Source of the DNA: Pyrenophora tritici-repentis
Taxonomy: Eukaryota > Ascomycota > Dothideomycetes > Pleosporales > Pleosporaceae
DNA: 64,000 nt
Direction of reading: 5' to 3'
NCBI RefSeq assembly: GCF_003171515.1
Contig: NC_089399.1
Coordinates: 2,232,001-2,296,000 of the forward strand
Position 1 is the stretch's first letter. Every line of letters starts with the position of its first letter. The notes under the pieces are model-generated. The model saw only the letters and a program-made list of their open reading frames with translations. It did not search any database and was not told where the DNA came from. The position numbers were made by a program, and so were the translations under genes. This document shows positions 1,973-24,482 of the stretch, in pieces.

Positions 1973-4719
1973 GTTGAAACCAGTGATCGGAATGGTCTGG
2001 TCTGGTCTGGTCTGAGGGTACAGACCAGACCAGACCAGGTGCTTACATAAGGACCGGTCCGACCAGACCGGTCCGACCAACAAGACCGCCAAGAATGAGG
2101 CTGAAGCAAAGAAGGAAGCCGAGGAAATGTGTTTTACTACTGACTGTCAATCTAGTCGTCTTCGTTCTCACTATCCTCGATATCGCTGTTCCCCTCAGCT
2201 TGGGGCTTTCCATACCAGGCCCGGAGACACTCGCACGCTTCTATAATATCTGCCTTCAGCCTACCACGGCGATCGACGATAGTAAGCTTCGCGCTACTAA
2301 AAAGACGTTCGCATTCATCCGACATAGGCGAGATCGCAAACATGTCTAGAGCGAAGCGAGCGAGATCTCGTTGGGAGTCGTAGCGAGATAGCCAGTACGC
2401 AATAGCCTCATTGCAACCTGCCTCTTCGTTATGAAGCCGGTCAGTAGAGATGTATTGTTCATACAAATCAGTTGTAGAAACTGGAGCGTCTATTCGAATG
2501 CGCTTATGTTCCCGCTGGCGATCAAATGCTGGGTCAGGATCTCTCTCCTTCCTGGCTGGTGGTGGCAGCATCTCGACAGGGTACCTTCCCTTATACTCTG
2601 TCTCCCAGAGATGCTTCACCGCTAATTGTGCGTTTTCAAACCACCTCTTCTTCTCTTCGTCGCCATGAAGAACCCACTCTTGCCTGAACCATCCCCACTT
2701 GCGATATGGATCAAGGATTTGAGCCGCATAATATGCCGGTGGAAGGTCAGTATCTTCAGGGAATCGATTTTGCCAATTCAGCTGCTGATTGTTATAGTAC
2801 TCAACGCACTTTAACCAAGCAGCATCAGCGCAGCCTTGAAGGTACTTCCATGTAAAGTTGTTATCGTCCTCAGTGTGGATGTCGTGGTAGTGATCCTTCG
2901 TCTCGCTTATCTCCCGGAGAAGGCAGTCCAAAGTTGAAAACCAGTCCGCAAGTGACGTCTTCTTACCTTCAGAAAGCAAAGTTGCAGCATAGAAGTCTTT
3001 GAGAGCGAGTTCAATCTTTTCAAGCTCAAACCAGTGCTGTCCATCAAGCTTAAAGTTCGCGATCCCTACGGAGCCCTTTCCAGGTACATGACGAGCCGAG
3101 AAGAGCTCTAAACGTTCTCGAACATTTAATGCACGTGTAATCGAATAAAACCATGAGTTCCAGCGGGTCGAGTTGTTCTGGATAAGCTCAAGCCCGTCGA
3201 ATTGCGAAAGATCTCCGCCGATAATAATTGTAGCAAACTCCTCACGCCGTTGTGGAGTAAGCCTGATGTATCGCACCAGGTTGTGAAGACGACCCAAACA
3301 TCCGAACTTCTTCCAGAGCTCTTCCACCTTCGTATAGTCGCCACGTTGATGATGCTTCTCCAGCTTCGCAAGATACTTCTCACAGTTTCGCCCCATAAGG
3401 AACGCCTGGCAACAGAGGTTGATGACATGGCCCAAGCAACGCAGCCGGCGATGACGACGTTGTTTTGACTTCATCCATGGGCAGAGATCCTTGAGTATAA
3501 ACTCAACAGCGGTATCATTTGCCGAGGCATTATCCAGCATAAAGTATCCAATCTGATCTCCGCTAATGTCGTATTCTTCCAGCAATTCAAGGACCACCGA
3601 TCCAAGATTCTCTCCAGTATGTTCGCCGTATATACGTCGCATACCTAAAGCGGTAACACGTCGCATGCCGGTAGTATCAATCCACATAGCGACGACGCCT
3701 AGGATAGCGTAAGGGTTTGGTGAAGTCCAGAGATCAAAGGAGATAGAGATCCTACTCCGTGAATGGTGTAGGTCCTCCCTAAGCTGTTGCTTCTTCGATA
3801 TGAATGCATTCATTACCCAGCTTCGGATAGTCTTCGCAGCCTTCGGGAGGTGGTTGAGTAGTGCCGGATTTAAAAAGAGGAGTAGTTCACGAAAGTACTG
3901 GTTCTCTAATTGAAAGAAGGCGATATGGCAGTACACAATCCAACGAATTAGAAGCTCTTTAAACTTCTCTACTGACTCCTTCCAGAAAAAGATGCTGGAA
4001 GCAGCCCCATCCTTTTGCTGGTCGATTATAGACTTCCGTACAGAACCCTTTCGCTTGATGCCACTCTGGGGATCAATCTGGTGCTTCTGTTCCAGGTGAT
4101 TCCGGATCCTAGAAGTGCCATTGATGACAAACAACTCTTGCTTGCTCTTCCCAACCCTGCACTCATGGCAGTAATACACCTCTTTCTTATCGCTATCTCG
4201 AATGTATTGGAGTCCGTACTTCCAGATGTGTGATGTACCTTGACGGAAATCCTTCCTTGCAATTATTGCACGTTTCACGTACGTGATACCGCCCTGCACG
4301 AACTCATCTGGAGATTCGTGATATTGAATAGGAGTGGGTGATAGTATAGGGGTGGGTGATGACGTGGGGATAGGAGATGGAGTAAGAGACGTTAAATCTA
4401 GTCTTATAATATTCGATGGGGACGGTGAGGTTGGTGTTGAAGGCTCCATAACAATAGTATATAAGTAGGTTGTTAAGGACTTGATTGTTCTATGTAAGTA
4501 GAAGACTTACCTTGATCTTAATGACTCATATTGTGCTAAATTTTCTGGCTAGATTAGTCTAAGATCTAGTCACGTGGACCTATTTATAGCCGGACCGGTC
4601 CGATCATCTAGACCGGTCCGACCACGGTCTCAAAAAATCGCCAGACCAGACCAAGTCTTGGCGGTCTAGACCAGACCAAGACCAAGTCAGACCAGACCAT
4701 TCCGATCACTGGTTGAAAC
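1973..4719. mobile_element. Intact hAT DNA transposon with 8-bp target duplication
   Basis: The element runs from 1981 to 4711 (2731 bp). Both ends begin CAGTGATCGGAATGGTCTGG and form perfect 24-bp terminal inverted repeats (1981-2004 and 4688-4711). The 8-bp direct repeat GTTGAAAC sits immediately outside at 1973-1980 and 4712-4719; that length is the hAT hallmark. Subterminal regions carry many TGGTCTGG-type and CCGGTCCGACC repeats, likely transposase binding sites. One long intact ORF lies inside on the minus strand. The insertion interrupts an older hAT gene, so this copy is younger than its host. Confidence 0.95.
2152..4449 (-). CDS. hAT family transposase (765 aa, intact)
   Basis: A single uninterrupted ORF starts at an ATG and fills most of the hAT element at 1981-4711. 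The N-terminus (about residues 1-45) is Ser/Thr/Pro-rich. A BED-type zinc finger follows at roughly residues 70-120, with a CHEC pair and a histidine pair in RNHLEQKH. The central RNase-H-like catalytic core includes SFDLWTSPN and FMLDNASANDTA. The C-terminus has the hAT dimerisation motif SDECERLFSSAKLTIVDRRG. No stop or frameshift is seen and the length is normal for the family, so the protein could be active. Family knowledge says it would bind the subterminal repeats and cut and paste the element; mobility here is inference. Confidence 0.93.
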   Translation of the reverse strand: MEPSTPTSPSPSNIIRLDLTSLTPSPIPTSSPTPILSPTPIQYHESPDEFVQGGITYVKRAIIARKDFRQGTSHIWKYGLQYIRDSDKKEVYYCHECRVGKSKQELFVINGTSRIRNHLEQKHQIDPQSGIKRKGSVRKSIIDQQKDGAASSIFFWKESVEKFKELLIRWIVYCHIAFFQLENQYFRELLLFLNPALLNHLPKAAKTIRSWVMNAFISKKQQLREDLHHSRSRISISFDLWTSPNPYAILGVVAMWIDTTGMRRVTALGMRRIYGEHTGENLGSVVLELLEEYDISGDQIGYFMLDNASANDTAVEFILKDLCPWMKSKQRRHRRLRCLGHVINLCCQAFLMGRNCEKYLAKLEKHHQRGDYTKVEELWKKFGCLGRLHNLVRYIRLTPQRREEFATIIIGGDLSQFDGLELIQNNSTRWNSWFYSITRALNVRERLELFSARHVPGKGSVGIANFKLDGQHWFELEKIELALKDFYAATLLSEGKKTSLADWFSTLDCLLREISETKDHYHDIHTEDDNNFTWKYLQGCADAAWLKCVEYYNNQQLNWQNRFPEDTDLPPAYYAAQILDPYRKWGWFRQEWVLHGDEEKKRWFENAQLAVKHLWETEYKGRYPVEMLPPPARKERDPDPAFDRQREHKRIRIDAPVSTTDLYEQYISTDRLHNEEAGCNEAIAYWLSRYDSQRDLARFALDMFAISPMSDECERLFSSAKLTIVDRRGRLKADIIEACECLRAWYGKPQAEGNSDIEDSENEDD

Positions 4720-5208: not shown

Positions 5209-7063
5209 TAACGTGGATGGCAAGCGAGTGGGCCAGGCAAGCGAGTGGGCCACCCCACCAACTTTTGTAACTTCAAAGCGACTTATCTCAACAACGCGAT
5301 AATATTATTGCTAGATATTGATACAGTAGATTACTCTATATTAAGAGTATTAGTGTTGCATGTGCGCGAGTTGTGCCCAGTCTCCTTGCACCTGGTGCAG
5401 CGCCTTTGAGCGCGCTGGCTAAGGCCTGATCGCGCTCCTCCTTGACGCTCTTCATGAGCAATCTGCTGGTCAGCCTCATTTTGAGCTAGTATATCCTCTC
5501 CAGCTCCCTTTGTGAGTACTCCATGCTTCTGTATACGCCTTTTAGAGCGCTGCCTACGCGCTGAGGCTGCGCTGTTAGCCTTCTCAAGACTAGAGATCCG
5601 ATCGCGCATCAGCTCAGCAGACAGCATCATCACCTCAGCGCCCTTCTTCAGCTGGTCAATCGCCTCAATGATCGAAGCTGGTGATGAGCTCTTATGCTGG
5701 CGCACGCGCTCACGTATAAGGCTTGACTGAGCCTCAAGCTCACGCGCGTTGCTCGGCGTTTGAGCTACCCAGGGAGCATCTGGTAGAGCTGCTGGAGGAG
5801 TAGGTGTACGCAGCTGTACATCTAGCTTTGATAGAACAGCCTCTGGTTGTAGAGGAACAAGGCCTGCGCCGCGGAAGGCTGAGTAGATATTAGCTGGCGT
5901 GAACGCTCGATCAAACGCAGCCTTAAACGCAGGCAGAAACTCTAGCTTGGTGATGTGGTTGATGTGGTTGCGCATGAGGCTCTCCACCTCACGGCTATAC
6001 GCGCGCTTTAATGGCGAGAAGCAGCCAACATCAAGTGGCTGGAGTAGGTGAGATGAGTGAGGAGGCATACAGAGCGTATGGATATTGTTCTCCTTACAGA
6101 GCTCCTGGAACTCTAGAGATTGGTGGCTCCTATGGCCATCAATAATAAGCAGGCGACGCGCGCCTATAGTACGAGCCTGCGTGTGAGCGTTGAAGTGCTT
6201 TAGCCACTCAACTCCAAGCTCATTATTCGTCCAGCCATTATCGCTGACTGCGATCGCCCAGTCGCGTGGGATATCCTCCTCATACCACGCTGATAGGTGG
6301 TACTGACCAGCGAAGATGAGGAACGGTGGCACTGACCAGCCACCAGCGCTGATGGCAGCAATCAGCGTTACCCACTCGCGATTGCCTGGCTGAATACTCT
6401 TCCGCCGGCCTCTTCTCTCTGATCCTGTTATAACCAGCTGCGTTGTAATCTTGCCCATCATAAAGCCAGCTTCATCAAAGTTGTAGACATCCTCATCGCA
6501 GATACCCTGCTCAGCCTTTATCTCTTCTACAAGCTTAAACCACCTCTTTATTAATGTCGCATCCTCACACATAGCTCTCTGCCTATCGTACGCTCGGTTG
6601 AAACACGTCCGAAGACTGTCTGTACGCTTAACAAAGTTGGCTGGCCACTTCTGCCCAACCTGGCCAGCGCCGCGCGCAGCCAGCAGCTTATCAGCCATAT
6701 CGCGTGCAGCTGCGTAGGTAGGCGCAAACCCGCGCTGATCTAGGTGAAGTATATAGCTAATAATCACCTCCTCTTCTCTCTGGGTAAGCTTCCTTGAGTT
6801 AGGCTGGCAATCGCGTCGTGCAGGTATACCAGCGCGTCGGCGCGTGAGTGTCATTCGGGCGACTTCAAATGTCCGCGCAGCGTCTCTATTAGACTGGAGC
6901 TGGTTTCGGGTAGTAGCTGAGATAGCTAGCTGTATATCAGCTTCATAAGAAGGGTTTTGGGATTGTTTTGGTGGAGCCATAATTGATTGAAGTTAGGTAG
7001 ATGCAAAAAGTTGGTGGGGTGGCCCACTCGCTTGCCTGGCCCACTCGCTTGCCATCCACGTTA
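5209..7063. mobile_element. Intact pogo-like (Tc1/mariner superfamily) transposon, TA duplication
   Basis: The element spans 5211-7061 (1851 bp). Its terminal inverted repeats are 56 bp and perfectly matched (5211-5266 and 7006-7061), starting ACGTGGATGGCAAGCGAGTG. The repeat contains an internal duplication, GGCAAGCGAGTGGGCC appearing nearly twice. TA dinucleotides at 5209-5210 and 7062-7063 are the target duplication expected for this superfamily. It is inserted in the older hAT gene and encodes one intact transposase on the minus strand. Confidence 0.95.
5331..6980 (-). CDS. pogo/Fot1-like DDE transposase with C-terminal CCHC knuckle (549 aa)
   Basis: An intact ORF starts at an ATG. Residues about 10-55 resemble a psq-type helix-turn-helix. 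A CENP-B-type second DNA-binding region follows (about 60-125, with NSRKLTQREEEVIISYI). The DDE_1 catalytic core shows YNFDEAGFMMG, then LLIIDGHRSH, then MPPHSSHLLQPLDVGCFSPL, the third acidic residue being Asp as in pogo/Fot1 (DDD type). A coiled region precedes a C-terminal zinc knuckle CTRCKETGHNSRTC (C-x2-C-x4-H-x4-C). The knuckle is unusual compared with the minimal pogo layout. The protein sits between perfect terminal repeats and shows no decay, so activity is plausible but unproven. Confidence 0.93.
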   Translation of the reverse strand: MAPPKQSQNPSYEADIQLAISATTRNQLQSNRDAARTFEVARMTLTRRRAGIPARRDCQPNSRKLTQREEEVIISYILHLDQRGFAPTYAAARDMADKLLAARGAGQVGQKWPANFVKRTDSLRTCFNRAYDRQRAMCEDATLIKRWFKLVEEIKAEQGICDEDVYNFDEAGFMMGKITTQLVITGSERRGRRKSIQPGNREWVTLIAAISAGGWSVPPFLIFAGQYHLSAWYEEDIPRDWAIAVSDNGWTNNELGVEWLKHFNAHTQARTIGARRLLIIDGHRSHQSLEFQELCKENNIHTLCMPPHSSHLLQPLDVGCFSPLKRAYSREVESLMRNHINHITKLEFLPAFKAAFDRAFTPANIYSAFRGAGLVPLQPEAVLSKLDVQLRTPTPPAALPDAPWVAQTPSNARELEAQSSLIRERVRQHKSSSPASIIEAIDQLKKGAEVMMLSAELMRDRISSLEKANSAASARRQRSKRRIQKHGVLTKGAGEDILAQNEADQQIAHEERQGGARSGLSQRAQRRCTRCKETGHNSRTCNTNTLNIE

Positions 7064-8894: not shown

Positions 8895-9047
8895 AACCGC
8901 TCCATCCAACCAAGCTAAGCAAGCTGACTGAGCGAGCGCCTATCCCTAAGCTCGCTCGGCTTGCAAGCGCGCACTGCGCGCTCAGCTCATTCGGCTTGGT
9001 CAAAACGTCCAAGCCGAGCGAGCTGAGCGAGCCGGCTCGCTCGTTGA
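8895..9047. repeat. Subterminal GAGCGAGC repeats, probable right end of older hAT element
   Basis: The block carries repeated GAGCGAGC and CTCGCTCGGCTTG motifs and ends GAGCCGGCTCGCTCGTTG at about 9047. It mirrors the block at 1332-1460. Directly beyond it the LINE reading frame begins, in the middle of its C-terminal Cys motif (CHTC), so this end marks the insertion point in the LINE. The 250 bp between 8626 and 8895 hold only the presumed 5' untranslated part of the hAT gene. Confidence 0.55.
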
Positions 9048-11575
9048 CAAGTATGGCAGTCTCTCTTGTTGAATCTCTTAAGGTAGGAGTTGAAGTATCC
9101 ATGTCCTAGCTTGAGTGAGTAGAACGCGCTCGAGATTTCTCTTGGTGTTCCCTTCGGGACTTTGATTGTTGTATGTGTGTTGAGCTTGAAGATCCTTGAG
9201 TAGGAGCTTCTGTTTTTGGTGGGCCTGTCGGTATACCTCTTGTACTCCATCAGTTGTTCTGTTTTTTGTATTTTGTTGATTTCTGTGCCTAAGTAGGCTA
9301 GGCTCGCTATGGTCGATGTTGTTGGTCTCTCTTTAGCTGCTTCCTTTGCTAGCGTGTCGGCTTTTTCGTTGCCCTTGACGTCGTTGTGTCCTGGGGCCCA
9401 CTGCAGGTGGATAGATGCTTTCTTTGTCGTTATTCTCTTTGCAGCTCTGATGCATCTTAGTAGCCACTGTTGTCCCGGGTTGTCCGATAGGTTGTTAAGC
9501 CTATGGATTGCTGCTTGGTTGTCTGCGTATACGTAGATCTCTTGGCCTTCTTGTGCCACTATAGCCGCGTGTTCAAATGCCTGTGCTATCCCCTCTAGTT
9601 CACCGTTGTAGACTAGTTGGGAGCATCCAATGTTTGTCTTTTGAGAAAAGGTTTCTTCGTGGGTGGAGCTGTACGCTACTACACCTACGCCGATCCCTAT
9701 TCCCTTGTCGTGTTGTGAGGCATCTGAGTAGATTGCGGTGAAGTTATCTCCGCTCCTTGATAGGATATAATCCGCGTGTGCAATTGCCTCTTCCTCTTTG
9801 CTCTTTTTTGATACAGTAACCTTGTAGTTAAGACTTTCCCATGGTCTGAACCTATATGGAATTATCTTTTCTACGCTATTGTTGTCTCTCTCTGGGATTG
9901 ACTTAACAATAGTATATAGTTGTCTATGCTGGTTTGGCTTTTTGTAGCTAGCTTTGTCTGTATTTGTGATCCTTGTAATTGCTTTCTGGATTGGGTGGTT
10001 GCTGGATAGCTGGTGTGCTCTAGACGCATACTTTCGGTTGTTGGTGTTGAGTCTAATTGCAGGTGACGTAAGTCCGGATTCAATGCTTGTTGGTAGGGAT
10101 GGTGACGTTCTAAACACTCCAATTATCTTTCTACACGCCAGGTTGTGCAGTGATTGTAGGAGGCTAGTGGCGTAGCTTTGGTTCTTCCAGTATATTTGTG
10201 ATCCGTAGTCTGCAACGCTTGTGACGCATGCTAGGTATAGTTGTCGTACTGCTTTTGGGGAGAGTCCTCTTTCGATGTTGGCTAGTCTCCCTAGTCTATA
10301 GAATGCTTTCCTTGCTTGGCTTACGCGTGTAGCAATATGTTCCTTGAAGGACAGTCTATTGTCTATGTGGATACCTAGCCATTTGATTGTGTCTTTCGGT
10401 TCTACAATGGTGTTGTCTGGAAGCTGTAGGCTTCTCTCTTTTCTCTCTTTCTTGGCGGTAAAGTGGATGAGCTCTGTCTTAGCTATATCGAACATAATCG
10501 CTAAGTTTTTCCCTCGGTGAGATAGTAGGCGGACTTGCTGTTCTAGTATTTTGACGTTTTTCTTTAGCGATGTTGAGGATGTCGATAGAGATAGGTCGTC
10601 AATATAGGATAGGTTGAAGCTTTGTAGTCCTGGGAAGAGGTCTCTGGTGTAGATAAGAAAGAAGATTGGAGACACTGGGCTGCCTTGAGGTATCCCAGCT
10701 ATTATCTCGGAGAATTCTTGTGTCTTATTGTCGAAGGAGAGTCTTAGCGATCTGTTTGAGAAGAAGGATTTTGTCCAAGCGATAAGACTAATTGGAAGGC
10801 CTAGCTTCTTAAGCGTTCGCAGGAATTGATTGTGTGAGACGTGGTCAAATGCTCCCTTTTGTAACGGGCTAGAGCCCAGATGCTATGGTGATCCTCGGTG
10901 GAACCTTCGGAGCTTCCTCGGCACTTTAGATGCTTCGAGAAGCTACGTGAACAACGAGCCAAACGTATATAGATATCGTTGCACTGCAGATAGCTTTCTT
11001 CTTCATCGAATACAATCCTGTTATCAGGCACCGGCATACTTTGCGCAGCCCCTTACACCTTTACGTCTAGGAAGATAGTTGATGTTATTTGGCCTTTCTG
11101 TTTCTGGTGCTGAATTTGGTCGATGAGTAGCATAGCTGCATCTATTGCAGATTTCTTGAGTCTACCCCCAATTTGGGTTGGGTGTAGTAGCTCTGTGATT
11201 TCTGCTAGATTGCTCAGCCTACTTGCGGTGATCCTCTCGTTAATCTTTCCTAAACAGCTTAATAGAGTAATGACTCTGTAGGCTTTTGGGATTGAGTAGT
11301 CTGGTTTTGATGCCTTTTTGAGAACAGCTCCTGTAGCTTGTTTCCAGCATTTTGGGTGGTATCCGTAGTCGAATAGGAGTGAGAAAGCTTTAAACATCGT
11401 TTGCGGTTGAGCTTTGTACGCGGCTGTGATTATGTCTTGTGTTATTGCATCTGGTCCTGGGGTGCTACTTTTGACTTGCCTTGAGCATGCTCGTTCTAGT
11501 TCAGTCGTGGATAGTGCTGGCCAATCCCATCTCTTTTCCTGGTAGTTGGTAAGGACAGACTTTAGTTTCGATCTA
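9048..11575 (-). pseudogene. Tad/I-type LINE ORF2 (reverse transcriptase + RNase H), broken
   Basis: The minus strand encodes the RT thumb/palm and RNase H of a non-LTR retrotransposon. Visible RT motifs are STPGPDAIT (about 11460), FLDVK split from GAFDHVSHN, GIPQGSPVSPIFFLIY (about 10690) and YIDD (about 10590, in place of the usual YADD). RNase H motifs follow: IYSDASQHDKG, YNGELEGIAQAFEHA, YADNQAAIH and WAPGHNDVKGNEKAD. The gene is cut by a 198-bp MITE at 10860-11057 and truncated at its 3' end at 9047 by the older hAT. Its 5' part runs into copia sequence near 11575. No endonuclease domain or ORF1 is recognisable here. Confidence 0.88.
10855..11062. mobile_element. 198-bp MITE inside the LINE reverse transcriptase
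   Basis: The insert runs from 10860 to 11057. Its ends are TGTAACGGGCTAG and, in reverse complement, TGTAAGGGGCTGC, which is an imperfect terminal inverted repeat of about 12 bp. The direct repeat CCTTT flanks it (10855-10859 and 11058-11062). Removing the insert and one CCTTT restores the RT frame exactly at the conserved Asp-Val-Lys-Gly-Ala-Phe-Asp motif, so the borders are firm. It has no coding capacity. The same terminus appears again at 12297. Confidence 0.88.
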
Positions 11576-18268: not shown

Positions 18269-19998
18269 CTTGGAATGGGCATGGAGATGCGGCAGGTGAC
18301 CTAAAGAAGATATACTGTATACGTAAGAAGCATGCTACACGATCAGCAAGAAGCCAGCGAAAGCCATTGATCTTGTACCATGACAAATTACCGGCACCAG
18401 CGATCTAGTCATCCCCCGGCTTCCAGCCGCCTCTTGCGTATTGACTTGGATCTTGAGACTGTAGCGGCGGTAACACGAATAGCATATCCTCGGGTTCCTT
18501 GTCCTGGTCGCGACGGATGGTGGATCAGGTTCCCGGCAGCGAATGTACGAGAAGCGAAACCCACTCAAGGGCAAGCGATTTCTCCAACCTCGCTGGCATC
18601 ATGCTTGCAAACAGCTAATATCAGATCGTGCGCTAGCCATGGAAGGGGCGAAGTGCGTACACTACCGTCTAGATTAAGTGAGTGCCGTGCAAATCATTCG
18701 GAGCCTTACCCCATGATCTAAAAAACACGATTGGTCACCCGCTAAAAGCAATCTTGGGGGAGCTACTGGATGACGTGCAGGGTCCACGATCAACGAGGAC
18801 CTCTGAACATCAAAATTCCCCGTGCGCCGATCCAACCAGCCACTATGGGTGACATGGTGCATAATTTTGGCTCCAGGAGTAGCGCCCAGACTCTCAATGC
18901 GTCAGGGGTCATTGGACAGAGTTTTGCATCGCAACCGTGCGCCGAACCTCCAACGCCGGGGTCGAGCTTTGTATGCCGTACCGGTACGGATAGATGAGGC
19001 TAAGAGAGCGGGCGAATGTAGTAACCTTCTGGAAGGTGTGTAGGTTCGGTGTGTAGGTTTGAGCCTTTCTACGGCGGGTAAAGCTAATTTCAAGATGTCA
19101 ACACGGGCCCTAAGCAAGCTCGAGAGTCGCATCTACCACAAGTCTGTGGTGCACATAGTCCATGACGAGATGCGAGATAAGGCATCAAGCGGTCTAAGGC
19201 TGGCCAACTCATCGCCAACCTACATAAAATCGAGATGGCGTCAAGACTATCGAAATGGCGGGTGTTGGTGGCGGCAGTACCGTAAGCTCAATGGCAATGT
19301 TAAATGTACGAAAGTGTCGATCTATCGTGTTCTAGGTGTTGAGCTGGCACTGCCGAACCCCTAAACTTGCAACAATACCGAGCTCAATCGTACTGCGACT
19401 GCACAGTACGACACGTGATACGAACTTTGGTGCGGGCCTAGTCCGCGAGGCCAAAGGATAGACGAAAGTGTGGTTGGTGATTGATAGCGAGTGAAACCAG
19501 AAGGCATAATTCGTGTGACAGGTGACAATGGATGACATGACCCTGCGAAGGTACACGGAAGTCTATTCCCGCCCGTACGCATGAGTGCGCTAGATTGACG
19601 TTTCGGTGTTGTTTCTTCCATCCCGGTTGCATATCTCGAGGGCTTGGGGACCGGCGCAAAACGACCAATCTTTCTATCTCTGGTTGTAGCGCATCAAGAC
19701 GACTATGTAATGTCTTGGCTAAAATGCTTGGCTGCGGGGGTACAATATGATGATGTGGAGGTATGGAGTAGGGCGAGCAATTGTGAGATCTGTTGAGTGA
19801 GATTCAATGTCAGAAGGTGCTTGTTAAGAAGTACTGCTCTCATTGAATACGACGCCACATTGTTCTAAACATGTGTATAGCTGGTACAATGTGCAATGGC
19901 TGTCTGAGAAGCTGTCTGATCATCGGATTGTCAGGTCGAAGTCGGGTTTTCGGTTCAACTTTGTCCGGGGACTGGCTCGGCTATTGTGGTTTTCGAAA
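18269..19998. other. Intergenic stretch without a recognisable gene
   Basis: About 1.7 kb between the receptor start and the two-gene transposon. Open frames are short, overlap on both strands and lack motifs. The first few hundred bases presumably hold the receptor promoter. Nothing else can be supported. Confidence 0.45.
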
Positions 19999-20193
19999 TA
20001 CCTTGAGCCGCCTGGATCTGGTTAGCTTGGTGCCCAAGAACATCAACTCCCATAGTAATTTGTTAGTAAATTAATGCAGCAGCCGTTTCCCACCTCCAGA
20101 AGCCCATGAAGCTAGTCCTGTACTCTAAATCGTTCGTGTATAGCGTTTTGTTTGTGTGGAGCTTGTTGCGAGCTCAATCTAGCTGCTGTTGGG

Positions 20194-21888
20194 ATGCCGC
20201 CCAAGCGCCAGCGTAAGCCGAAGCAGCCATTCGATCAAGGCGTTAACCCGTCCTCCCAGAAGCGTAGAGCGCCAGCAACTAGACAAAATCCTACCCATTT
20301 AACGCCTAAACGTGTCCGCCGTGAGGCGCTGCCGTCGCCTCCAGCGACTGCCCCGCCGCGCCGTCAAAGCCCGTTGTCCGAGCCTGAGCTGCAAGCCACC
20401 CAAACAGCTGCCTCCGCGCAAGCTGAAGATATCGTTGGCGAGGATGAGGATACTTTCGAGGATGGAGATGGCGATCCGCTGCCTGAGGATGAGGATGAGA
20501 TCGCTGCTAAGGGCGCTGCCGGTAGTGTTGAGGATGAGGGAGAGCCAGCGTACCGACGTCAAGAAGGCACTCCATGGCTGCCTCGCTCATCGCAAGCGCT
20601 AGAGGATGAGGTTAATCCTGTACTGCGCGTTAGGTGGAGGGCTTGCCTTGGTGGTGATATGGAGAAACACTTTATTCCTGAAGCTGCCGATAGCGAGCAC
20701 GGCGTACGGCTGTACTCGCTGCATTTCGACGACCTATGGCAGTGGGTAGATGACGTTGTTGCAGAATTACGGCCAAAAAGAGCGAAGATCTCATCTGTTT
20801 GCACTGTTGTTTACCCAGCTAAGCAGGCCAAACGCGAGCGCGCGATAAAGCGATTGCGGCGAGGTGTTGATGCAACGTGGAATAGCTTTCAGCGCCTTGT
20901 TGTAGAGGTTGATAACTATGTCAGCGAGCCAGTAAACGTCGATTTCGAGCTCATCTTGGCTGAAATTCCAGGGGAGCAGCAGCCGTTGCCAACGGTTGTC
21001 GACGGTCCTCGTCGACGCACCGCAACGGTGATTCAAGAGGAGGGGCTTGCTGGTGTAATAGCAGCTGAACAAGCAGGTAGCGGGCATGCTATTGCTATCC
21101 GGGATAGATGGCGCTGTACAGATACCCATTGCGAGAACTATCCTTATTGCTGCTGGATGGCGCCAACAGCGAGGCAGCCAGCGCGCTTCGAAGATCACCT
21201 CTTTGTCAACGGCAACATTATCTCCATGTGGGCAAGAGCAATTACAGCGAGAAGGGCAACGTACGATGAGCCATCTGATGATGTACGGCTTGCAATTTTG
21301 AGAGCAAAGGACCTGCGGGTGCATGAGAAAACGCGCAAGTTGCGGGCGGCTGGAGATGGCGACGATGATATCAAAAGCTTAACAAAACTGCTCATCGTTG
21401 GACAGCTTGAGCGGATGAACAGGCAACCTCAACAGGAGTCTAACTTGCAGGCAGCTGCACCAACGATAACAAGAGCTGAGGTATCTAGTGCATCTCAGTG
21501 GGCGCCTATCCGATATGATCATGAGCAGGAGATTAACGAGCATACTAGTAATTTCTTTAACTACCTTAAGTTAAAATTTCCTACAGTTGGAGAGGACATT
21601 AACGAGCTTTATAAGACTCTTGTTATTGACGGAGCTATGGATATCAACCTCTTGATGCAGCCATCTGGTGATATCTTGAAGTTGTGGACGCAGCATTTCA
21701 AGCAGCCTCCTGGCTGGTTTTTCACGCTACAAAACACTGCAAAAGAATGGCAAGCTGGGTACCAGGGTCTCACAGATCGTAACTGGAGACGAGTCGAACG
21801 TTGTAAGAAAAGAGAAGAGATTGCGCGCAAGAAATTGGTGGTTGAACCGTCTAGCAGTGTTGTGGAGGATGATGGCGAGAATGCTTGA
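20194..21888 (+). CDS. Transposon-borne accessory protein of unknown function (564 aa)
   Basis: I start at the ATG at 20194 (MPPKRQRKPKQPF); the frame is open further upstream but has no earlier ATG. The first 60 residues are strongly basic and Pro-rich, with likely nuclear localisation signals. Residues about 75-125 are very acidic (EDEDTFEDGDGDPLPEDEDE). A central domain follows. Near residues 307-319 lies a Cys cluster, RWRCTDTHCENYPYCCW (C-x4-C-x5-CC-W), with a His about 15 residues later, so a small metal-binding fold is possible. The C-terminal 120 residues are helical and charged. I do not recognise a family. Enclosure by the same inverted repeats as the transposase suggests a role in transposition or its regulation; this is inference. 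Confidence 0.8.
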   Translation: MPPKRQRKPKQPFDQGVNPSSQKRRAPATRQNPTHLTPKRVRREALPSPPATAPPRRQSPLSEPELQATQTAASAQAEDIVGEDEDTFEDGDGDPLPEDEDEIAAKGAAGSVEDEGEPAYRRQEGTPWLPRSSQALEDEVNPVLRVRWRACLGGDMEKHFIPEAADSEHGVRLYSLHFDDLWQWVDDVVAELRPKRAKISSVCTVVYPAKQAKRERAIKRLRRGVDATWNSFQRLVVEVDNYVSEPVNVDFELILAEIPGEQQPLPTVVDGPRRRTATVIQEEGLAGVIAAEQAGSGHAIAIRDRWRCTDTHCENYPYCCWMAPTARQPARFEDHLFVNGNIISMWARAITARRATYDEPSDDVRLAILRAKDLRVHEKTRKLRAAGDGDDDIKSLTKLLIVGQLERMNRQPQQESNLQAAAPTITRAEVSSASQWAPIRYDHEQEINEHTSNFFNYLKLKFPTVGEDINELYKTLVIDGAMDINLLMQPSGDILKLWTQHFKQPPGWFFTLQNTAKEWQAGYQGLTDRNWRRVERCKKREEIARKKLVVEPSSSVVEDDGENA

Positions 21889-22192
21889 AGCTTAGTGGCC
21901 TGAGCGTTTTTGGTGACAGCGGCCCGTGCCCGCTATAGTGTTGAGGTTTTTCAGGCGTTTCAAATGCGCTGCAACAATAGTCTATTTGGATAGCCCTATG
22001 TACAACACTACAACGTTATGCGATTATAACAGGTTAACTTCCTAAGATAGTTCTATATGTATAGAAATAGCTCTTATTTTTTTAGAATTATTAAATCGCT
22101 TTTGTGGGTTGCGCATTAAGGTGTAATCGTTCGCATTTGTATGGTATCATCTACCTATAGAAACGTACTGTGGCATCCATTTAAAAGCACAA

Positions 22193-23167
22193 TTAATAGG
22201 GATAGCCACACCTATGGAACCAGCTTCTGCAGTTAATATTACAGCACACCAGCTGCGCTGCATACTCAAGAAAGACCCCAAAGTCAATGAAGTTCTCCGC
22301 TTGCGCTGAATTCCTTTTCATCCACCCCTTGAGCTGCTTAAAGCTCTTCTCGATGGGGTTGAAATCTGGTGAGTATGGCGGCAGATACTCAAGGAGTACT
22401 CCAGCACTTTGGCAAAGCACCCGTACACGCTCTGATCGATGGATGGAGGCGTTATCAAGCACGATTACTGAGGCTGGCCCTGGGTGAGGATTGCAGAACG
22501 GCAGCACTTGAAACTCTAAGAAGTCTTCTAGGATCTCAGATGTAATCGCGCCTTGAAAGATCTTATAGCTTATGTAGCCATCTATCGTCATGGCTGGCAG
22601 CAGCGACCACCGTTCTGATCGCCTGAAGCTGTGTGATAGCTCCACCGGCTCCCCGATTGGAGACCAGCCATACTTGCGGTCGCCCGTACGCTCATTGCAG
22701 GCGCTCTCGTCCAACGCAACGATCTGCTCCGCCTTATAGTGTTGCGCCATCCTGGCAAGATAGAGGCGGCGGAGTGGCTCACTCTGCTCCTTTGCCCGCT
22801 TTGTTGCAAGCTTGCGAGACCATCTCATCTTCTCTAGCTCTCGGTAAACGCTCGCAAGGCTTATCCTAACGTCGTACTCGTCGTACAAGAAGTCCCTCAT
22901 CTCATCCATGTATGCGCCCGGTGAGCCATTGAGGTATGCCTGAAGGCCTTCGCGCTGAGCTTGCCGGAGTATAGATGGCCGCCCAAGTCGAACGCAGCGC
23001 GGCGGATAAGGCACGCCCCAAAACTCTAAGCTCAACCTCAGCTTTGCTACTGTGTTACGGCTCGCACCTGTAGCTCTAGAGATGGCTCGATCACTTTCGC
23101 AGGCAGCAATTCGGTCGAGGATAGCCTGGAGAACAGCGGGCTGCAAGCGGTGGCCGGTGCCTGGCAT
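22193..23167 (-). CDS. DD34E DDE transposase, IS630/Tc1-like (324 aa)
   Basis: I start at the ATG at 23167 (MPGTGHRLQPAVLQ). A first helix-turn-helix covers about residues 10-45 (SDRAISRATGASRNTVAKL). A second winged-helix region covers about 65-120 (GAYMDEMRDFLYDEYDVRIS). The DDE_3 core has Asp153 in VALDESACNERTG, Asp238 in VIVLDNASIHRS and Glu273 in PPYSPDFNPIEKSF. Spacing between the last two is 34 residues. All three catalytic acids are present and the frame is intact. The gene ends 304 bp from the end of the convergent accessory ORF and starts about 110 bp inside the right inverted repeat. Confidence 0.92.
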   Translation of the reverse strand: MPGTGHRLQPAVLQAILDRIAACESDRAISRATGASRNTVAKLRLSLEFWGVPYPPRCVRLGRPSILRQAQREGLQAYLNGSPGAYMDEMRDFLYDEYDVRISLASVYRELEKMRWSRKLATKRAKEQSEPLRRLYLARMAQHYKAEQIVALDESACNERTGDRKYGWSPIGEPVELSHSFRRSERWSLLPAMTIDGYISYKIFQGAITSEILEDFLEFQVLPFCNPHPGPASVIVLDNASIHRSERVRVLCQSAGVLLEYLPPYSPDFNPIEKSFKQLKGWMKRNSAQAENFIDFGVFLEYAAQLVCCNINCRSWFHRCGYPY

Positions 23168-23493
23168 CGCGATGAGATGGGCTCGAGAAAATTGCAACAC
23201 CAAAAACGCGAGTCAGTAGAGGCGATCGCAGCAAACAATGAACTTCAAATACGTTGTGGGTGTTAGAAAGCGTGGCTGCATCGATTTACTAACAAATTAC
23301 TATAGGAGTTGATGTTCTTGGCCACCAAGCCAACCAGATCCAGGTGGCTCAAGGTATTTCGAGAAACACCCATAACGTCGCGTAGAGTAGGTATGGCGAC
23401 TCCAGCGTCCACCTGACCGTGACAAAACATACAGAACACAACCGTAAGTGAGGTTAGGAAAGAAGAGCGAAAATAGAGTGGTAGGAACAAGAC

Positions 23494-24482
23494 ATGGCCG
23501 CTGGAGTCGCTAGAATGTTGCTCCTAGGCCCAACACACCGCCGCATCTTCGGCCACGCCCTCCAGGCGCGCACCTATGCAACCGCATCTGCGCCTGCGAT
23601 CAGCGTCACAAATGTGCCGGCGCCGCACTGCGGAAGCATACGGATCCTTTCCTTGAACAGGCCAGCAGCACGGAATGCGATATCCCGACAATTGCTTGCC
23701 GAGCTAAGCCACCAGGTCAACAGCATTCTCGATGAAGGAGACAATGGGTCGACGAGGGCGTTGATATTGGCGAGTGAGGTGGATTCGAGTTTCTGCGCAG
23801 GCGCAGATTTGAAGGAGAGAGCGACGTTCACGCCAGAAGAGTGGGTGCACCACCACCTGCACCTTCCAAATTACCAATTCGGGGGAAAGAGCGACTAACA
23901 AGCGACTGCAGCACGGCAAACTTCCTCTCTTCGTTACGAGGCACGTTTGCATCCATTTCCCAGCTTCCCATTCCCACCATATCTGCTCTCGCAGCTCCGG
24001 CCTTCGGTGGTGGCCTTGAACTAGCCCTTACGACGCATCTGCGCATCTTCGCCTCGTCCACTACCGTCGCCCTTCCCGAAACACGACTTGCAATTCTTCC
24101 TGGCGCAGGAGGAACATATCGTCTGCCTGCCCTGATTGGTCTCGCTCGCGCAAGAGACTTGATCCTCACAGGTCGACGCGTGGCTGCGCCAGAGGCTTAC
24201 TTCCTCGGCTTGTGCGACCGCTTGGTCGAGATAACCGCCGATGATGCAAAGCAGGAAGGCGCGCCGCGGAAGAAGGTGCTGGACGAGGCGATAAGGTTAG
24301 CAAGAGAGATATGCGAAGGTGGTCCGATAGCTATCAAGGCTGCGCTGGCGGCCGTGGAGGGGTGCGCATTGGGAGAGCAGGCGGAGAACGCTGCATACGA
24401 TATTGTAGTCAAGACCAAGGATCGGGATGAGGCATTACTTGCTTTTAGAGAGAAGCGAAAACCTGTCTTCAAAGGAGAGTAA
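23494..24482 (+). CDS. Mitochondrial enoyl-CoA hydratase/isomerase family (AUH-like), 305 aa
   Basis: Exon 1 is 23494-23840, intron 23841-23911 (71 bp) and exon 2 23912-24482. The first 30 residues (MAAGVARMLLLGPTHRRIFG) look like a mitochondrial targeting peptide. The crotonase fold shows the oxyanion-hole segment SSFCAGADLKERATFTPED and, after the splice, AAPAFGGGLELALTTHLRI with the usual Glu pair region (LPETRLAILPGAGGTYRLP). Among crotonases this pattern is closest to methylglutaconyl-CoA hydratase (AUH) of leucine breakdown, but substrate assignment within the family is only probable. It converges with HNT1 (91 bp between stops). The two-gene transposon ends only 140 bp upstream of the ATG, so promoter sequence may have been displaced. 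Confidence 0.85.

Follow-up and report, generated by a model that had tools for sequence, protein, structure and literature searches.

The stretch analyzed here, 64,000 nucleotides from the wheat-leaf pathogen Pyrenophora tritici-repentis (contig NC_089399.1, positions 2,232,001 to 2,296,000; hereafter the window), contains at positions 19984-23372 a Tc1/mariner transposon of 3,389 bp. We found that this element carries two genes between its inverted repeats, one for a DD34E transposase and one for a 564-residue partner protein, which we call ORF2 (ORF, open reading frame). It is a young, high-copy and apparently autonomous member of the IS630-Tc1-mariner (ITm) group. ORF2 is likely to serve the transposon as an accessory protein. 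The best explanation for the whole is a young high-copy ITm element with two resident genes, the second of which acts in this accessory role, and our confidence in this complete picture stops a little short of even. The features of the element are the following.

19982-19983, no strand: left TA target-site duplication (TA on both sides, counts over loci)
19984-20080, plus strand: left terminal inverted repeat, about 97 bp (copy alignment, repeat match)
20194-21888, plus strand: ORF2, the 564-residue partner protein (open frame, own-genome matches, homologues, models, fold comparisons)
22193-23167, minus strand: DD34E DDE_3 transposase with a winged helix-turn-helix, HTH_33 (Pfam, alignment, homologue start)
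23276-23372, minus strand: right terminal inverted repeat, about 97 bp (copy alignment, repeat match)
23373-23374, no strand: right TA target-site duplication (TA on both sides, counts over loci)

The ends were set by comparison with other copies of the element. A first-pass annotation had placed the bounds at 19999-23356, which lies inside the element, and had recognized real inverted repeats, but its estimate of about 78 bp was too short: the repeats extend over 95 bp, of which 87 are identical (91.6%; element positions 3-97 against 3386-3292). The first repeat search of the window had returned an inverted repeat of 116 nt at 85% identity. Within the set L001-L030, both ends could be located for 28 loci, and 27 of these carry TA on either side; in a larger set 38 of 39 loci do so, which represent 35 distinct sites. 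The sole exception is L030, whose left end reads TTAT. All the ITm features that we tested are present, namely the DD34E catalytic domain, the TA duplication, the terminal inverted repeats and an N-terminal helix-turn-helix. Internal repeats of at least 9 bp, which could have been transposase sites, were not observed within the terminal 230 bp.

The two genes are convergent, with ORF2 on the plus strand and the transposase on the minus strand, and both frames are open, as had been claimed. The transposase frame (22193-23203) encodes 336 residues from a TTG. Since several homologues begin at its M13, the protein probably has 324 residues and starts at the ATG at 23167. It matches DDE_3 (PF13358, 3.4e-29) and, over the family cut-off, HTH_33 (PF13592, 4.6e-06). 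The catalytic residues D165, D250 and E285, numbered on the 336-residue frame, are invariant in the 22 rows of the alignment, and 34 residues separate the last two, so that its earlier assignment as a DD34E DDE_3 transposase holds.

The evidence that the two genes move together comes from the other copies in the genome. ORF2 gave 63 own-genome matches, 41 of them spanning residues 1-564, and the transposase gave 68. Six ORF2 rows and 15 transposase rows were left out before loci were counted: the six and eight of the 15 are short pieces within counted loci, and the other seven are distant relatives (31-51% identity) or their pieces. Grouped by place, the matches fall into 52 loci, and both frames are full and open in 30 of them. 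ORF2 is full with a stop in six, full beside a partial transposase in five, and partial beside a full transposase in seven; both genes are partial in three, and a single locus, L031, has the transposase only. The latter is a fragment of the right end, from element position 2077, and L040 is likewise truncated. All 50 loci with both ends hold sequence of both genes, none lacking that of ORF2. That ORF2 might be an ordinary host gene, present once and at one constant position, had also been considered; the 52 loci rule this out.

A search for the ends alone gave the same picture. A 31-base terminal pattern with at most three mismatches matched the genome 102 times, and its reversed control never. 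Among the 100 matches listed, 96 form 48 pairs, two lie in L031 and L040, and two in L004 and L022. For L004 and L022 the locus comparison had shown both ends, and the two unlisted matches presumably represent the second end of each. No copy without ORF2 and no solo end was found among these 100 of the 102 matches. For the DNA search with each element end, the best 40 scored matches were considered. Loci L012 and L022 (copies at C7:1117010 and C31:9478) have the same flanking bases, which may reflect a redundant contig or a segmental duplication; the copies are therefore not all independent insertions.

Within L001-L030, 13 loci, the window copy included, are identical across the 3,389 bp (12 of the 29 others compared are thus identical to the window copy), nine others have a single base difference and one has two. 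The rest show insertions or single-base length changes, mostly in one-base runs, where the latter may be assembly errors. Near-identical copies at 52 loci indicate that the structure of the element is more than chance and bear out the recent co-mobilization that had been suggested. We also considered frameshifted copies as a clue to which gene is needed, but dropped them, as they owe their frameshifts to 1-nt deletions in single-base runs that are possible assembly errors. An early stop in ORF2 occurs in seven loci (six full-length rows and one partial). The five of these that were compared (L038 and L043-L046) share the same change and the same small insertion behind ORF2, so that a lineage with a slightly shorter ORF2, deprived of its last seven residues, has multiplied. 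L033, L034 and L048 are longer copies with an insertion within ORF2. As a separate observation, insertions of about 2-2.8 kb split L032, L033 and L034, and the matches on the two sides have 11 bp of the element in common (1948-1958; 1712-1722), as expected from the 11-bp target duplication of another transposon; judged by spacing, L048 (on C13) appears similar to L033.

ORF2 starts with the ATG at 20194 and ends with the stop at 21886-21888. The basic N-terminus and the long acidic stretch already noticed are confirmed, with 15 lysines or arginines against two acidic residues in positions 1-60, and 20 acidic residues out of 51 in positions 75-125. Structure models and fold comparisons predict a disordered N-terminus, basic then acidic (1-138), a PB1-like beta-grasp domain (143-257), a Cys/His cluster (308-335), a helical region (340-408), a SAM-like domain (about 436-526) and a last helix (528-549). 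The cysteine cluster was initially described as C-x4-C-x5-CC-W. It is present, but in an alignment of 15 rows C308, C313, C320 and W321 are invariant and H335 is kept in 14, while C319 is found in only four, so that the invariant motif is C-x4-C-x6-C-W. The cluster, which may bind zinc, lies in a region of low model confidence. The beta-3/beta-4 stretch of the beta-grasp domain is basic and conserved (K213, R216, K219, R223). A PB1 domain is defined by an OPCA motif (D-x-D/E-x-D/E) or a beta-1 lysine in the accessible text of PMC7051960; the acidic core of OPCA is absent from the beta-3/beta-4 stretch of ORF2, and residues 143-152 hold no conserved lysine, with R147 and R149 instead.

The partner had been called unrecognized, and it stays so. 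ORF2 has no Pfam match at E up to 10. The 15 family members gave matches to 14 Pfam families, one member each, with a best E of 0.024, which we take as chance. Three weak matches to PDB sequences, the best with E 0.093, fall within the acidic region and are not convincing, and among viral structures none passed a threshold of E 0.001, the best reaching 1.5e-02. The fold comparisons singled out no DNA-binding family, and they exclude none.

The conserved basic residues of the beta-grasp domain, the Cys/His cluster and the SAM-like module, together with the lack of an enzyme domain, suggest a multimeric accessory protein that binds nucleic acid. We propose that the DD34E transposase, as expected from its family, would bind the inverted repeats and carry out cut-and-paste transposition into TA. 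ORF2 could bind nucleic acid or the transposase through its conserved basic beta-grasp surface and its Cys/His, probably zinc, cluster, and could multimerize through its SAM-like domain. It might in this way help to assemble, stabilize or target the transposition complex. As a chain of predicted steps, this model is tentative, and we would hesitate slightly before accepting all of it. A bolder version, in which ORF2 founds a Pleosporales family of PB1-like, Cys/His and SAM-like polymer-forming DNA-binding partners needed by the DD34E transposase, and thereby a two-component Tc1/mariner lineage outside ciliates, appears doubtful.

The main rival to a role within the transposition complex is that ORF2 would act outside it, as a regulator or as an anti-silencing or chromatin factor for the transposon, which would boost expression, counteract repeat-induced point mutation (RIP), methylation or heterochromatin, or direct the element toward open chromatin. 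Its acidic disordered stretch may resemble an activation or histone-contact segment, and the SAM-like fold matches include the chromatin proteins Scm, Polyhomeotic, PHC3 and L3MBTL3. Supporting this idea, TET/JBP genes occur in fungal DNA transposons that belong to other superfamilies, and they are proposed, in the part of PMC12730594 available, to aid the transposon against silencing; and the almost mutation-free copies are compatible with the weak RIP of P. tritici-repentis described in the accessible text of PMC5913888. However, the Pfam search, at E up to 10, revealed no enzyme domain, chromodomain or bromodomain, and a SAM-like fold by itself says nothing on chromatin. We regard this regulatory role as unlikely. 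One could also imagine that the target of ORF2 is the host, where it would favor retention of the element, by interference or drive for example, rather than transposition or its regulation. The two genes invariably move as a pair, and in the available text of Manning et al. (PMC3538342) the element is present in pathogenic isolates but missing from one that is non-pathogenic, which recent spread explains equally well. We saw neither a toxin-like domain nor a transmembrane stretch or signal in ORF2, and such a role is a pure possibility that we consider highly improbable.

The reading of ORF2 as a resident partner gene gains from its family outside this genome. A search of 5.8 billion proteins, in which matches need shared 5-residue words, gave 70 relatives by sequence and 74 by profile. 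Most come from P. tritici-repentis. The remainder belong to the Pleosporales genera Setomelanomma, Ophiobolus, Clathrospora and Alternaria or are unnamed metagenome proteins, and some relatives are fragmentary or derive from incomplete gene models. Apart from those of P. tritici-repentis, 11 clusters match ORF2 across 96-100% of its length at 40-66% identity, and P0067 shows 34% over 70%. The N-terminus is the least conserved part, with a mean majority fraction of 0.44 and none of its 138 columns invariant, and residues 258-351 are the most conserved (0.70-0.74, with 21 of 94 columns invariant), a profile such as selection on the protein would produce. No relative was confirmed in viral contigs or in bacterial or archaeal genomes. 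None of the 70 and 74 relatives bears a host protein name, except for P0016 and P0068, which are annotation fusions. Together with P0135 these are annotated proteins whose gene models fuse pieces of the element to frames with a DUF1682 name, a Retrotran-gag-2 domain or a non-ribosomal peptide synthetase module. Linkage of ORF2 to the transposase was also sought through the sizes of the carrying contigs, using the longest contig per cluster and 120 of the 484 transposase matches, and gave no convincing pair: 1268, in both sets, is too short for two genes, and 3143 and 3144 are from different sources.

The element, put forward earlier as a candidate undescribed one, is very probably in print already. 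In the accessible text of Manning et al. 2013 (PMC3538342), a Tc1/Mariner family of P. tritici-repentis has an ORF "sequestered" between its repeats, which these authors called transduplication. It counts 46 members, 31 of them near-identical with both coding regions, transcripts are reported, the family is absent from isolate SD20-NP, and both coding sequences stand in tandem on one bacterial artificial chromosome of Alternaria. Superfamily, species, counts and Alternaria relatives fit, and we are confident that the two elements are the same, a match of description and not of sequence. The numbers are similar and not equal (52 loci here, of which 30 are full and open in both frames, against 46 and 31 there), the isolate being probably different. 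Their label for the ORF, PF08946 (osmosensory transporter coiled coil), was not reproduced: the current model matches neither ORF2 (E up to 10) nor five annotated forms, and gives three weak single-copy matches elsewhere in this genome.

Transduplication means that the transposon captured an unrelated ORF, a hitch-hiker with no role in transposition. It is the published reading, and the available text of the same paper (PMC3538342) describes a hAT element of P. tritici-repentis with a histone-H3-like ORF. Two further points weigh in its favor and against a resident partner: nothing in our analysis shows that ORF2 is needed, and none of five loci of distant Tc1 relatives in the genome has an ORF2 relative in its surroundings. 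On the other hand, no host source gene appeared among the 70 and 74 relatives found by the 5-residue-word search, without any match to a host-gene family. The near full-length conservation of the relatives at 40-66% identity indicates an old family, and the tandem pair in Alternaria, as reported in PMC3538342, an old association. The codon usage of ORF2 correlates with that of the window's DDE_1 (0.44) and hAT (0.31) frames and of its own transposase (0.27) better than with that of five main host genes (-0.14 to 0.16), but reaches 0.30 with a short enoyl-CoA hydratase (ECH) frame; the transposase is intermediate (0.11-0.37 against host genes). ORF2 thus leans weakly toward transposon genes. 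Taken together, the age of the family, the tandem pair and this weak lean favor ORF2 as a long-standing resident partner gene rather than a captured ORF, and we judge capture without a role to be improbable.

Tc1/mariner transposases are usually seen as self-sufficient, hence their use as tools in many hosts. Two-gene cut-and-paste transposons are known in En/Spm and MuDR, whose second gene is possibly DNA-binding. A parallel can be drawn with PIF/Harbinger, where a transposase and a DNA-binding protein gene likewise share one element in the accessible text of PMC3562529. These three differ from our element by their transposase superfamily and target site, and neither Myb/SANT nor any other Pfam family matches ORF2. 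Closer are the multi-ORF Tc1/mariner elements of ciliates (Tec, Sardine, Thon, Anchois and Tennessee), which in the available part of PMC3464196 likewise join an IS630/Tc1-type DDE transposase to resident ORFs, some of them hypothetical and shared from one element to another. However, their partners include a tyrosine recombinase and other hypothetical ORFs, and their transposase is DD35E and not DD34E. No ciliate ORF is among the 70 and 74 relatives, although no direct sequence comparison was made. The hAT element with the histone-H3-like ORF (PMC3538342) and the TET/JBP-carrying transposons (PMC12730594) are likewise fungal, with an extra gene between the ends; as far as these texts are accessible, such extra genes have recognizable domains, whereas ORF2 does not. 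The word "mariner" does not occur in the accessible part of PMC12730594. No other description of ORF2 or of its domain make-up was found in the openly licensed literature. As far as our searches of the literature show, this kind of element is known and the element itself is in print, and what is new is the ORF2 partner family with its predicted make-up. A Tc1/mariner lineage in which a second gene has been retained since ancient times would reveal what a partner brings to such a transposase, be it in assembly, in targeting or in evading fungal silencing. With its intact and near-identical copies the element is a convenient test case in yeast, and the reinterpretation touches the 2013 claim of a second fungal case of transduplication.

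The neighboring transposons of the window had been described as decayed, which is only partly right, since two other frames are also open: 765 residues at 2155-4449 (minus) with a hAT dimerization domain (PF05699, 4.3e-07), and 549 residues at 5334-6980 (minus) of a DDE_1 transposase (PF03184, 2.6e-37) with a weak Tc5-type helix-turn-helix, which belongs to a second, different transposon. A 562-residue frame at 8990-10675 (minus) with an RNase H domain (PF00075, 4.1e-10) is possibly a retroelement remnant. Finally, an ECH_1 enoyl-CoA hydratase-like gene (frame 23841-24482, plus, with an upstream frame opening at 23494) lies about 120 bp beyond the right end of the element, so that the insertion may sit in the promoter of this gene.

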